Shown one piece after another: positions 6,422 to 63,735 of a stretch of DNA of 64,000 nucleotides. Both the position numbers and the translations under genes were made by a program. The notes below the pieces were generated by a model. The model was not told where the DNA came from, made no database searches, and saw nothing but the letters and a program-made list of their open reading frames with translations. The stretch's first letter is position 1. Each line of letters opens with the position of its first letter. Source of the stretch: Planctomycetia bacterium (GTDB taxonomy: Bacteria; Planctomycetota; Phycisphaerae; Phycisphaerales; SM1A02); the NCBI GenBank assembly GCA_005776885.1, contig SXOD01000050.1, positions 1 through 64,000 on the forward strand. The letters are read 5' to 3'.

Positions 6422-7390
6422 ATGCGTCGAGCAAAGATCAGCGTCATTGGGGCAGGAAACACGGGTTCGAGCTGCGCGGTCTGGGCCGCGAGCAAGGAAC
6501 TTGGCGATGTCGTGTTGCTGGACATCCCCGCCGCCGAGGGAGTCGCCAAGGGCAAGGCGCTGGACCTTGCATGCAGCGCGCCGATCGAGGGGTTCGACTG
6601 CCAGATCCACGGCACCGCCGACTACGCCGACACCGCGAACAGCGATGTCGTGATCCTCACCGCAGGCCTCCCTCGCAAGCCCGGGATGAGCCGCGACGAC
6701 CTCATCCAGACCAACGTCAAGATCGTGCGGTCGTGCAGCGAGCAGATCGCCAAGCACAGCCCCGACGCCACGCTCATCGTGCTGTCGAACCCGCTGGACG
6801 CGATGGTGTACACCGCCTGGAAGGCTTCGGGCTACCCGACGCACCGCATCATTGGGCAGGCCGGCTGCCTGGACGTGGCTCGATTCTGCACCTTCCTCTC
6901 GATGAAGCTCGGCTGCAGCATCGAGGACATCAAGTCGCTGCTCATGGGCGGCCACGGCGACGACATGGTGCCGCTCCCGCGATACACCAGCGTCCACGGC
7001 ATCCCGATCAACCAGTTGCTCTCTGACGCCGAGATCACCGAGTGCGTCGAGCGCGCCAAGGTGGGCGGCGGCGAGATCGTCAAGCTCATGGGAACCAGCG
7101 CCTACTACGCGCCGGCGAGCGGCTGCATCCAGATGGCCGAGTCGATCATCAAGGACAAGCGCCGCATCCTGCCGTGCGCGGCGTACTGCGAGGATGCGTA
7201 CGGCGTCGCCCCGGGCCAGAAGGGCAAGGGTTACTTCGTGGGCGTTCCGGTCATCCTGGGTGCCAACGGCGTGGAGAAGGTGGTGGAGGTGAAGCTGGAC
7301 GCCGCCGAGCGGGCGCTCTTCGACACCAGTGCCAGCCACGTGAAGGACCTGGTGAAGGTGGTCATGGACCTGTTCCCCGAGCTGGCCTGA
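6422..7390 (+). CDS. mdh: Malate dehydrogenase (LDH-like)
   Basis: A 322-residue NAD-dependent malate dehydrogenase of the LDH-like bacterial type, acting in the TCA cycle. The Rossmann motif is GAGNTG (10-15). The mobile loop has GLPRKPGMSRDDL, where the first Arg favours malate/oxaloacetate over lactate. NPLDAM and the catalytic His in GGHGDDMVPLPRY are present. Length is normal. It is one of the few genes here with a conventional leader: TATGAT at 6362-6367 and a Shine-Dalgarno GGAG at 6412-6415, seven bases before the ATG. It is followed at once by a palindromic repeat. Confidence 0.95.
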   Translation: MRRAKISVIGAGNTGSSCAVWAASKELGDVVLLDIPAAEGVAKGKALDLACSAPIEGFDCQIHGTADYADTANSDVVILTAGLPRKPGMSRDDLIQTNVKIVRSCSEQIAKHSPDATLIVLSNPLDAMVYTAWKASGYPTHRIIGQAGCLDVARFCTFLSMKLGCSIEDIKSLLMGGHGDDMVPLPRYTSVHGIPINQLLSDAEITECVERAKVGGGEIVKLMGTSAYYAPASGCIQMAESIIKDKRRILPCAAYCEDAYGVAPGQKGKGYFVGVPVILGANGVEKVVEVKLDAAERALFDTSASHVKDLVKVVMDLFPELA

Positions 7391-7401
7391 CCGCAGACTG
7401 C

Positions 7402-7458
7402 CCCTGGTTTTGGCCAATGCGTTGCCTCCGAAGCAACGCCTTGGTCAAAACCATCAGG
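7402..7458. repeat. Imperfect palindromic element, diverged copy of the queA-internal palindrome
   Basis: An inverted repeat of about 57 bases in the gap after mdh. Its core (GGTTTTGGCCAATGCGTTGC, then CTCC, then GAAGCAACGC and TTGGTCAAAACC) is the same element as the perfect palindrome at 33021-33075, with a few changes. It lies 12 bases after mdh and may form a hairpin in the mRNA, but no T-run follows, so terminator activity is uncertain. Confidence 0.85.
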
Positions 7459-7471
7459 GAGCCTCCCAAGT

Positions 7472-8119
7472 TTGCACGCCCTGTGGCGCGCCGTCCGATA
7501 TGTTCCAACCGTGCAGCGCATCACGCAGCCGCTCTTTCGCATCGACCCGGGTTGGCTGTTCCTCGTTGCCGGCCTCCTGCTGATCGGAGCCAGTGTGCTC
7601 GTTCCGCAGGAGGCACGCTTGCACGACCTTCGGCAGCAGCTTGGCATCCTGGAGCGATTGGAGGATTTTGGCGAACGGCGTGCGCAGGCCTACGCGAAGT
7701 TCATCGACCAGGTTGAGGCCGGCGACCCATCGGTGATTCGTCGATTGGCCGCTGCCCAGCTTCGGATCGTGGATGACGGCTTCGAGCGCCTGGCCGAGGC
7801 GGACTCCGCCCGTGCGCCCGTCTCCGAGTGGATCGATGCGTCAGTCCCCATCCCGCCCGTCGAAGCGATGGCGCCGACTGACACGTTGCTCCATCGATGG
7901 ACCAAGGGGCGCCACCAGTTCTGGCTTGGGGGGCTTGGGGCGTTCAGTGCGTTTGTCGGGCTCATCGTGGGCGTGGAGCACCCGGGCAGGCGCCGACGTC
8001 GACCGGTCGGCTCGGGCCTTTCTGGCATGGAGACGACAGAGACGCCCACGCCGGCGGCCATCACACGCCCCGATGAGGCAGTCGATGAGTTTGCCGATTA
8101 CCGTCACGGCGCGGACTGA
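7472..8119 (+). CDS. Membrane protein of unknown function with two transmembrane segments
   Basis: Up to 215 residues; not recognised. From the TTG at 7472 the protein has a hydrophobic segment (GWLFLVAGLLLIGASVLV) near residues 28-45, a charged probably helical region of about 85 residues (LRQQLGILERLEDFGERRAQ and onward), then a second segment (LGGLGAFSAFVGLIVGV), a basic RRRRR stop-transfer patch and an acidic tail. The middle domain therefore probably faces outside. GTG 7511 is an alternative start. The reading frame begins 13 bases after the palindromic element. The septum-protein-like topology is only suggestive. Confidence 0.6.
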   Translation: MHALWRAVRYVPTVQRITQPLFRIDPGWLFLVAGLLLIGASVLVPQEARLHDLRQQLGILERLEDFGERRAQAYAKFIDQVEAGDPSVIRRLAAAQLRIVDDGFERLAEADSARAPVSEWIDASVPIPPVEAMAPTDTLLHRWTKGRHQFWLGGLGAFSAFVGLIVGVEHPGRRRRRPVGSGLSGMETTETPTPAAITRPDEAVDEFADYRHGAD

Positions 8120-18059: not shown

Positions 18060-18118
18060 CCCCGTTGGGCTGATCAGAATCGACCAAAAAAACGTCGAAT
18101 CTGATCAATCCAACGGGG
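18060..18118. terminator. Long hairpin between convergent genes, possible bidirectional terminator
   Basis: Two 25-base arms, 18060-18084 and 18094-18118, pair with three mismatches around a CAAAAAAAC loop. The outer ends are CCCCGTTGG and CCAACGGGG. It sits 15 bases after the Spy-like gene and before the convergent pseudopilin gene. It lacks a downstream T-run, so terminator function is inferred from position. Confidence 0.6.
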
Positions 18119-31710: not shown

Positions 31711-32618
31711 GCGGCCAGCGCGAGGCGCGGATCGCGTTCCTTGGGTCGGGCGCCTTTGGCATCCCAAGCTTGGAGATGATCGCGCGGACGTGGGGCGTCT
31801 CGCTCGTGGTGTCGCAGCCGGATCGACCCGCTGGCCGCGGGAAGGTGGAGACGCCGACACCCATCGCCGGATGGGCGACGGCGCGGGGCGTGCCGATGGT
31901 CCGTGCCGATGACGTGAATGGCAGCGAGGTGCTGGCTCGGCTTGCGGCACTGGGCGTGAATGTGCTGGCGATCATCGCGTTCGGGCAGAAAATCGGCGAG
32001 TCGGTGCTGGCCGGCCGGTTCGCGGTCAACCTGCACGGATCGCTCCTGCCTCGCTGGCGCGGCGCCGCGCCGATCCAGCGATCGGTGATGGAAGGCGACG
32101 CCGAGGTCGGCGTGTCCGTCATCTCCATCGCACCGACGATGGACGCGGGCGTGGTGTACGACGAGGCGCGCACGATTGTCGGGGAGGGCGAGACCGCCGG
32201 AGCGCTGCACGACCGGCTCTCCGAGCTGGGCGTGGAGCCCCTTCGCCGCGTGCTCGCTTCGTGGGTGGCGGGCGACGAGATCGCTGGCCGTGCGCAAGAT
32301 GAGTCGAAGGCCACCCGTGCGCGAAAGCTTTCCAGGACCGACGCGTGGGTTGATTTCCGTGGGCCCGCGAGGTTGGTCGCGGCACGAATCAACGGGTTGA
32401 GCCCCTGGCCCGGCGTCGATGCCCTCGTGGGGGGGAAGCATGTAAAGGTGTTGCGCGCGAGGGCGATTGGTGAGCGCCTCGAAGTCCTTGAGGTCCAGCC
32501 TGCCGGGGGGAAGGCCATGCGCTGGCCCGACTTCCTGCGCGGACTCCGGTGGGATGTTGCGGCGCGCGGGGGGGATCCGCCTATCACGTGCCCGACGGCA
32601 CCCGGGGTGTCCGTGTGA
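31707..32618 (+). CDS. fmt: Methionyl-tRNA formyltransferase
   Basis: A 303-residue enzyme that formylates initiator Met-tRNA. Motifs: RIAFLGSGAFGIPSLE, the folate/catalytic NLHGSLLPRWRGAAPIQRSV with Asn and His, and ISIAPTMDAGVV. The C-terminal OB-like tRNA-binding domain is present from about residue 210 (GPARLVAARINGLSPWPG). The GTG start overlaps the def stop, and its own stop overlaps the queA start, so three genes are translationally chained. Confidence 0.94.
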   Translation: MSGQREARIAFLGSGAFGIPSLEMIARTWGVSLVVSQPDRPAGRGKVETPTPIAGWATARGVPMVRADDVNGSEVLARLAALGVNVLAIIAFGQKIGESVLAGRFAVNLHGSLLPRWRGAAPIQRSVMEGDAEVGVSVISIAPTMDAGVVYDEARTIVGEGETAGALHDRLSELGVEPLRRVLASWVAGDEIAGRAQDESKATRARKLSRTDAWVDFRGPARLVAARINGLSPWPGVDALVGGKHVKVLRARAIGERLEVLEVQPAGGKAMRWPDFLRGLRWDVAARGGDPPITCPTAPGVSV

Positions 32619-33790
32619 GCGGCGGGTGCGACGTGCTTCAGCCGGTGCGAGGGGAAGTTGCTTCACTGCCCAGATCCGCGCTGGAGTACGAGCTGGATCC
32701 CGCTCGCGTCGCCACTCGACCCATCGAGCCCAGGGACTCGGCGCGGATGATGGTGGTGCACGTGGAGTCCGGCCGCGTGGAGCATCGGCGGGTGCGCGAC
32801 CTTCCGGAGTACCTGGAGCCCTCCGATTCCGTGGTGGTGAACCGAACCCGCGTGACGCCCGCGAGGATTGTCGGGCGGCGGGTGGGCGATGGCCGGGAGA
32901 CGGAGGGGCTCTGCCTGCAGCCGACTGGCCCGAGCACCTGGTCCGCGATGCTCCGGGGGGCCAAGCGATTCAAGGTTGGCGACGAGGTGGCCTTGGTGCC
33001 GCCAGAGGATGCTGGGCTCACCGGGGTTTTGGCCAAAGCGTTGCTTCCGAAGCAACGCTTTGGCCAAAACCCCGGCGAGGATCGGGTTCGGGTGGTGGAG
33101 CGGACGCCGGAGGGGGTGGTCCTGGAGTTCCTGACCGGGGAGCCGGCCGAGGTGCTGGCGCGCTCGGGGTGGACGCCGCTGCCTCCCTACATCGTCTCCG
33201 CGCGCCGGGAGTCGGCGCCCGACGCGGACGATCGAGCCTGGTACCAGACGGTCTACGCCGCCGAGGAGACTCGCCCCAGCGTGGCGGCCCCGACGGCGGG
33301 CCTGCATTTCACGCCGGAACTCCTGGCCCGGGTCCGGGGGGCCGTCGCGGCGGTCCTTGAAGTCGAGTTGCAGGTGGGGTCGGGGACCTTCAAGCCGGTC
33401 ACCTGCGATGACGTGCGGGACCACCCCATGCACTCGGAGTGGTGCGCGGTCCCCCCGGAAACCGTCCGAGGGCTCAAGGCGGCGGCCGGCCGGGTGATGG
33501 CCGTCGGCACGACGTCCGCCCGGGTGCTGGAGTCGCTCCCTCGGCCGCTGGAGGGCGGCGCGTCCGGGTTGGCGTTCGACACCAGGCTGCTGCTGGCGCC
33601 GGGGGCGACCTTCCGCTGGGTCGATGTGCTCATGACCAACTTCCACCTGCCGGGATCGACACTCCTGGCGCTCGTCGGCGCGTTCGCCGGACTGGACCGG
33701 GTGCACGAACTGTACGCCTTGGCGCAGCGTGAGGGGTATCGCTTCTATTCCTATGGAGACGCGATGTTGTTGTTGCGAGCGAGTCGATGA
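32615..33790 (+). CDS. queA: S-adenosylmethionine:tRNA ribosyltransferase-isomerase QueA with a palindrome-encoded insertion
   Basis: A 391-residue enzyme of queuosine synthesis that adds epoxycyclopentanediol to preQ1 in tRNA; it acts in the cytoplasm on tRNA with GUN anticodons. Family motifs: SVVVNRTRVTPARIVGRR, PTAGLHFTPELL, GSGTFKPV and TNFHLPGSTLL. It is longer than the usual 345-356 residues for two reasons: a 30-residue N-terminal extension and a 17-18 residue insertion, VLAKALLPKQRFGQNPG, encoded by the palindrome at 33021-33075. The insertion lies in a loop of the small beta domain, before EDRVRVVERT, so activity is plausibly kept. The GTG start overlaps the fmt stop. Confidence 0.93.
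   Translation: MSGGCDVLQPVRGEVASLPRSALEYELDPARVATRPIEPRDSARMMVVHVESGRVEHRRVRDLPEYLEPSDSVVVNRTRVTPARIVGRRVGDGRETEGLCLQPTGPSTWSAMLRGAKRFKVGDEVALVPPEDAGLTGVLAKALLPKQRFGQNPGEDRVRVVERTPEGVVLEFLTGEPAEVLARSGWTPLPPYIVSARRESAPDADDRAWYQTVYAAEETRPSVAAPTAGLHFTPELLARVRGAVAAVLEVELQVGSGTFKPVTCDDVRDHPMHSEWCAVPPETVRGLKAAAGRVMAVGTTSARVLESLPRPLEGGASGLAFDTRLLLAPGATFRWVDVLMTNFHLPGSTLLALVGAFAGLDRVHELYALAQREGYRFYSYGDAMLLLRASR
33021..33075. repeat. 55-bp perfect palindrome inserted in frame in queA
   Basis: Two perfect 27-base arms (33021-33047 and 33049-33075) around one central C. The outer bases are CCGG on both sides and the core is GGTTTTGGCCAAAGCGTTGC. If CCGG is a duplicated target, the insertion is 51 bases, exactly 17 codons, which keeps the queA frame open. 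A diverged copy lies at 7402-7458. This resembles the coding palindromic elements known in Rickettsia, but the sequence is not one I recognise. Confidence 0.92.
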
Positions 33791-60183: not shown

Positions 60184-60198
60184 GCGAACGTCCACTTG

Positions 60199-60249
60199 CG
60201 GTTATCGGTGAGAATGTGACCCTCAGGGTCACATTCTCACCGATAACCG
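60199..60249. repeat. 51-bp perfect palindrome between convergent genes
   Basis: Two perfect 25-base arms (60199-60223, 60225-60249) around a single C. The inner sequence is GTGACCCTCAGGGTCAC. It lies 15 bases after zwf and 77 before the end of the convergent OB-fold gene. No T-run, so a terminator role rests on position alone. Form, not sequence, matches the queA palindrome. Confidence 0.92.
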
Positions 60250-60326
60250 GGTGCGGACCTTGGGCGCGGGCACAGCGCACCACTCCAGCGCACCACCCCC
60301 GGCGCCTGGGACTCTCACTCGCGTTG

Positions 60327-63430: not shown

Positions 63431-63735
63431 GGATACTTGGGTGCCTCTGAAGGGTCTGGTCTGGTGAATCCTGCTGGGGAATCGGGCATTACAGCACGAA
63501 ACGGCCCGTTCGTCAAACATCGACGACCACTCGGCGGCGCGACCGTGTGAATCGTGTGGAAGGCGGCAACTTTCCGCGAAGGTAGGCCTGTGTTCGCGGT
63601 TCGCGCCTCGACCGGATCGCCCCTACAATAAGTCCGATAACACAAAACTCAATACGCCGCACGCCGCAAGCCGCGCGCAATGCGCAATGCGCAATGCGCA
63701 ATGCGCAATGCGCAAATGCGCAAGGCGCAACTCGC
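63431..63735. other. Intergenic region with a 7-bp repeat tract
   Basis: A 305-base gap between rpsD and the PurF-like gene. Its only marked feature is the GCGCAAT array at 63675-63731. The upstream part (63431-63600) is probably the rpsD leader and promoter region; no clear -35/-10 pair was found. No tRNA or small reading frame is convincing. Confidence 0.6.
63675..63731. repeat. 7-bp tandem repeat GCGCAAT
   Basis: Five exact GCGCAAT units, then GCGCAAAT, GCGCAAG and GCGCAAC. It ends five bases after the stop of the PurF-like gene (minus strand), so it lies just past that gene's 3' end. Confidence 0.92.

Follow-up and report, generated by a model that had tools for sequence, protein, structure and literature searches.

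A hairpin lying directly behind a stop codon and followed by a U-tract is the usual form of an intrinsic terminator. Palindromes of other kinds are dispersed in bacterial genomes, and among these the GTAG- and CGTC-tagged REPs are presented by Di Nocera et al. (2013, PMC3733652) as forming several families in some genomes, some of them species-specific, and as lying mainly between convergent or tandem genes and near 3′ ends, with some copies inside genes. There, the PVC superphylum is named among the carriers of GTAG repeats, and the CGTC class is described as being without a dedicated transposase, its families 1–4 having stems of 8–9 bp and loops of 4–5 bases. Rickettsia palindromic elements, as described in PMC10969869, are sequences of about 150 bp noted for in-gene, in-frame insertion in housekeeping genes, and the coding palindromes of nematomorph mitochondria, as described in PMC6649704, are perfect inverted repeats in protein-coding genes whose arms encode conserved regions.

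In the window (the whole stretch of 64,000 nucleotides that was analysed), the mdh gene for malate dehydrogenase (6422–7390, + strand; NCBIfam TIGR01763, 424.7 bits, cut-off 351.85) bears a palindrome at its 3′ end. The stretch 7402–7458 encloses a quasi-palindromic core of 47 bp (7406–7452, no strand assigned), with the mdh stop 15 bp before it and the next called gene 19 bp after it. The first-pass annotation had described it as a second, diverged copy of a palindrome in queA some 25.6 kb away, with several mismatches between the arms, and this description holds: 20 of 23 positions are paired in the mdh copy, against 23 of 23 in the queA copy (33025–33071, no strand assigned) at a distance of 25,619 bp. 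The latter is a perfect palindrome of 47 bp, with pairing extending out to 33017–33079, and lies in frame within the queA reading frame (32549–33790, + strand; NCBIfam NF001140, 342.1 bits, cut-off 324), where its stretch reads VLAKALLPKQRFGQNP; as the family match starts at residue 44, the true start of queA is probably downstream of 32549. The half-site GGTTTTGGCCAANGCGTTGC, allowing up to three mismatches, has four matches in the window, two per element, with 0.01 expected by chance and none of 100 shuffles yielding four. As RNA of the + strand, the mdh copy folds with −31.2 kcal/mol (z −6.95) and the queA copy with −51.2 kcal/mol (z −9.97), and for neither did any of 200 shuffles fold as well. 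A default inverted-repeat search of 7300–7560 reported no inverted repeat, probably because the mismatches break its 9-base seed.

These two palindromes belong to a dispersed family, here called A. The organism is taken to be a planctomycete, most of the best named queA matches being records of Planctomycetota or Phycisphaerales. In the draft genome that contains the window (G000; 2,490,991 bases or 2.49 Mb, 83 contigs, 84.6% complete), a covariance model built from nine elements first found by pattern gave 22 matches, which are both strands of 11 places on 8 contigs, with a majority sequence close to GGTTTTTGCCAAAGCGTTACTTCCGAAGTAACGCnTTGGCCAAAACC and a mean folding energy of −27.9 kcal/mol for the core. 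The arms change together: in the nine-copy alignment of the 11, two-sided changes occur in 8 of 22 pairs and 90.9% of cells are paired, values that none of 500 shuffles reached and that are far lower in slid versions, with shuffle controls that leave the relatedness among copies in place. Ten of the copies stand at gene 3′ ends and one, that in queA, in coding sequence, which answers the question raised by the first-pass annotation of whether gene ends or coding sequence are favoured. Nine of the ten lie 10–39 bp beyond a called stop; in the tenth (C53), the palindrome itself contains the stop codon TAA of the upstream frame, and the gene ending there was missed by our home-made gene finder, which thus erred at least once. 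The model was also run on 61 related genomes and on 181 from the same taxonomic family (overlapping sets, in both of which stricter filters removed weak matches); here, matches at E 0.001 were restricted to G000 and to G002, a genome of the same genus, where the match is weak (E 2.5e-4) and lies inside queA at the same place. For a 33-base consensus of family A, genome_contigs contained no exact match; G000 itself may be absent from that collection.

A palindrome scan of the window and of G000 stretches revealed a larger sibling family, B, characterised by the sequence GGTTATCGGTGRRAATGTGMCCC and with the outer arm GGTTATCGGTG. The expectation in the first-pass annotation of a repeat family of perhaps dozens was thus sound as to dispersal, and the number suits family B (92 half-site matches, 47 elements genome-wide), not family A with its 11 copies in an 84.6%-complete assembly. 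The core of the window copy (60200–60248, no strand assigned) is a perfect palindrome, pairing out to 60199–60249 (51 bp), 16 bp after the zwf stop; the whole copy (60187–60261, 75 bp, no strand assigned) consists of AACGTCC, 6 nt, the core, 6 nt and GGACCTT. Family B cores fold with a mean of −40.6 kcal/mol, and two-sided changes are found in 10 of 23 pairs with 96% of cells paired (0/500 shuffles as high). Pairs 2–11 show just two departures in 370 cells, and the inner pairs are variable, with compensation. In 33 of the 47 copies the core is flanked on either side by 6 nt followed by CGTCC or GGTCC, and 39 have at least one CGTCC no more than 40 nt away. Both ends were located within that distance in 43 copies, of which 35 combine CGTCC with GGTCC (p 4e-5) and eight have the same letter twice. 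The CGTCC end points towards the stop in 17 of 23 copies beside single stops (p 0.03), a count that omits seven convergent cases, so that orientation is biased, not fixed. On contig C3 (21915–30005, L206), four adjacent B copies combine a left arm of one subtype with a right arm of another, as though arms had been swapped.

Positions of family B relative to genes were read from home-made gene calls over 736,111 bases (557 genes, 89.5% coding). A called stop is overlapped or at most 31 bp away in 27 of the 47 copies and at most 82 bp away in 38, and six have no called stop within 400 bp. Three of the 27 overlap, with the called gene ending 12 nt inside the core. Three copies lie 38–78 nt inside called reading frames (L184:14135, L206:15022, L211:8084); these were taken as too-early start calls and kept in the counts. 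Ten copies could not be placed between two called genes; the remaining 37 are found between convergent (17), tandem (18) and divergent (2) genes, the background of intergenic bases being 23%, 53% and 24%, respectively (at most 400 bases counted per spacer, those of the elements among them), which amounts to a convergent excess (17/37, p 0.0016) and a divergent depletion (p 0.003). At stricter gene cut-offs the corresponding counts were 16, 18 and 2, and 17, 15 and 4 (4/36 divergent). Within tandem spacers the upstream stop is the nearer one for 16 of 22 A and B copies (p 0.026, one-sided), and for 13/20 and 12/18 at the stricter cut-offs.

As many dispersed palindromes, mostly intergenic and near 3′ ends, families A (11 copies) and B (47 copies) answer to the general description of REPs. 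They resemble the tagged REPs of Di Nocera et al. in forming more than one family in the genome, in their habit of lying at gene ends, chiefly between convergent or tandem genes, and in having a copy within a gene; the CGTCC ends of family B may be a counterpart of the CGTC tag. They differ from the CGTC REPs described there in a near-perfect stem of 22–24 bp, two to three times longer, with a 3-base loop in the structures used here, and from tagged REPs generally in that no shared tag was seen by eye beside the family A core and that arms have been replaced at inherited sites between two species (see below). The queA copy, in frame within a housekeeping gene, recalls the Rickettsia palindromic elements, although it is the only one of the 11 family A copies with an in-gene position; the rest stand at gene ends, one of them providing the stop codon. 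It also recalls the nematomorph palindromes in being a perfect inverted repeat kept inside a protein-coding gene, but the queA insert is an extra peptide missing in relatives. Like an intrinsic terminator, the family A hairpin lies just past the stop codon; unlike one, it has no U-tract, and its stem base is GGTTTT..AAAACC. Since TTTT was found within 10 nt past the core in none of 22 family A and none of 94 family B flanks, and a U-tract is thus missing from 116/116, intrinsic termination was rejected. A terminator-like hairpin of the window, at 619–652 behind the 5S rRNA gene and followed by TCCTTTTG, contrasts with the palindromes.

The comparison with G002, here termed the sister species as the closer of two same-genus genomes (mdh 97% and queA 69% identical, against 85% and 59% for the other, G001), separates the history of the sites from that of their sequences. 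In the QueA alignment an extra stretch is present in G000 and G002 and missing in G001 and the other relatives shown, one of which (L030) has a shorter extra stretch of its own. The G002 insert is palindromic too (17/22 positions), with a different sequence: alignment and counting by eye gave four changes that affect both arms, including one deletion common to the two, and five confined to a single arm. The queA site was thus occupied before the two species parted. At the mdh site, G002 has a spacer without such a palindrome, loss from G002 remaining an alternative to later arrival. The greater age that the first-pass annotation had offered as one reading of the mdh copy is therefore not derivable from its mismatches, the queA site being common to both species and the mdh copy missing from G002.

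Both flanks together were recovered in G002 stretches for 20 of 58 elements of G000 (3 A, 17 B), and by eye G002 has a palindrome, in some cases imperfect, at nine, a remnant at four and none at seven. A palindrome is present at queA and at the B sites L206:1915, L206:9957, L209:12556, L212:13632, L217:601, L219:4694, L222:8949 and L225:10672; a half or shortened one at zwf (60200), L212:9126, L219:16512 and L220:7411; and none at mdh (7406), L173:11863, L179:11539, L206:3209, L206:8296, L211:8084 and L219:15392. Under stricter filters, the family B model has 14 matches at eight places in G002 and none in 59 other relatives. Conversely, a half-site pattern of G002 has 15 matches in that genome (reversed control 1) and none in G000 or G001. 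The related family of G002, C, comprises 11 elements in 949,270 bases, retained from 14 candidates after three (L264, L292, L294; 12 or 13/17 positions paired) were dropped by eye as foreign to the family; the flanks of L264 map to a place in G000 without an element. Eight of the 11 have a flank match, and 8/8 fall at B sites of G000, a count favoured by the choice of G000 stretches largely around A and B copies; the other three have no flank match in those stretches. Two of the eight (L285, L286) are placed by one flank only, and L287:17094 lies in an interval with two B copies of G000. A pairing of the family A copy on C53 with the C element L246:15106 was rejected, the right flank mapping to L246:334–2058.

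At seven shared sites the 17 innermost pairs are paired at 105/119 positions in G000 and 109/119 in G002; 68 of these 119 pairs are the same, 28 are changed on both sides and 22 are paired in one species only. The site pair L215/L285 has an even-length centre, so a shift of register may account for its eight two-sided changes; when this pair is left out, 60 of 102 pairs are the same, 20 two-sided and 21 paired in one species only. The outer GGTTATC, the most constant part among B copies, is missing from the G002 partners of the seven sites. Two G002 places keep B-type arms, one in L281 and, as a half, one in L195 (the counterpart of L212:9126); the B form may therefore be the ancestral one. 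A part that is constant within one genome yet replaced in the other speaks for homogenisation among copies or for a changed recognition factor; independent compensations would hardly produce it.

There is no sign of the agent known to mobilise REPs, since the Y1_Tnp transposase domain (PF01797) was not found in G000, G001 or G002 (84.6, 88 and 96% complete), a search that was positive in 5 of 14 control genomes; there are gaps in the G000 assembly, yet G002, about 96% complete, is also without a Y1 transposase. In this the palindromes differ from RAYT-mobilised REPs, no REP-associated Y1 transposase having been found in the three genomes of the genus. A MITE of a DDE insertion sequence would have target-site duplications and a parent element with the same ends. 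All half-site matches are within palindrome copies, except one cut by a contig end (C18:32401), so that the assembly shows no such parent. No target-site duplication was definable from the G002 comparison, the spacers differing too much, and none of six Rfam matches above the gathering threshold in the window falls on a palindrome. A viral origin was rejected: the family B half-site had no exact match in viral_contigs, and the family A half-site had one (L301), on a contig judged phage-like by its reading frames, which has no partner arm and was taken as chance. Integron attC sites were set aside, the copies adjoining housekeeping genes on many contigs.

On balance, we favour the reading that the palindromes are REP-like, dispersed non-coding repeats, which an arm-recognising activity spreads and rewrites at their sites and which are tolerated for the most part behind genes. 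A trans-acting activity recognising the outer arms would have spread copies through the genome, and these would have persisted mostly just past stop codons, where a strong RNA hairpin may be harmless or even useful, possibly as mRNA 3′-end structure. Existing copies would then be overwritten in place, with either another copy or the opposite arm as the source, so that both arms change together and each species comes to have its own arm sequence at inherited sites, as the comparison with G002 displays. For family A, the in-place argument has one shared site (queA), against two where G002 has no palindrome (mdh, L179), the remainder coming from B and C. Against this reading stands that the Y1_Tnp search linked no transposase or recombinase to the palindromes, and the location at gene ends can equally be compatible with a selected 3′-end function. 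A bolder and rather doubtful extension would have a non-RAYT factor read the outer arms and keep rewriting the palindromes in place, its "password" having changed between the sister species. If true, this would be a REP-like system that undergoes concerted evolution and has a recognition protein of its own, in which sites are inherited and arms are current.

Alternatively, the palindromes could be functional 3′-end RNA hairpins (terminators lacking a U-tract, or mRNA stabilisers) whose pairing is selected, with a sequence-specific factor reading the outer arms. The gene-end location with its divergent depletion and convergent excess (17/37, p 0.0016) would fit, as would compensatory arm changes in stable hairpins (core means of −40.6 kcal/mol for B and −27.9 for A) and the several orthologous sites that are still palindromic despite changed sequence. 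However, no core has TTTT in the 10 nt past it, unlike the 5S hairpin with its TCCTTTTG, one copy lies within queA, where termination would harm, and G002 has no palindrome at 7 of 20 sites and a remnant at four. Independent compensations, moreover, would not yield one common outer arm per species, and we regard this explanation as possible but unlikely.

Less probable still are decaying mobile repeats (REP or MITE) that are no longer served by an arm-recognising factor and whose arms are kept alike by template-switch correction, a quasipalindrome process described in PMC7202029. The four two-sided changes in coding DNA between the queA copies of G000 and G002 are of the kind expected, as are the mosaic B copies on C3 with arms of different subtypes. 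Correction of arm from arm alone, though, leaves separate sites unlike one another, whereas the B outer arms are near-invariant over 47 copies and different in G002 at seven site pairs. Local duplication, in which the queA palindrome gave rise to that at mdh, suggested by two copies within one 64-kb window and named in the first-pass annotation as the inference should a genome-wide count of the core find only these two, is almost certainly wrong, being refuted by nine further copies on seven other contigs.

Where two sister species have palindromes at the same sites but differ in the part that is otherwise best conserved, the inheritance of a site becomes separable from that of its sequence, and what copies or maintains REP repeats without a transposase becomes a testable question within one small genus. 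Literature searches for palindromes that evolve in concert and for terminators lacking a U-tract yielded nothing usable, from which we claim no absence from print.

Other hairpins and repeats were noted. A hairpin at 18060–18118 of the window (no strand assigned), 15 bp after a called stop, has 22 complementary positions and an A-rich loop; it is one of two copies of a family, D, in the sequence examined, the other lying near position 47167 of C3 in G000. A further hairpin, AAAACGAGCATTCSGAATGCTGTTT, has the same sequence in both species (L212:19604–19664 and, in G002, L254:3447–3483). Near the end of the window, 63675–63713 is a short tandem run of GCGCAAT units.
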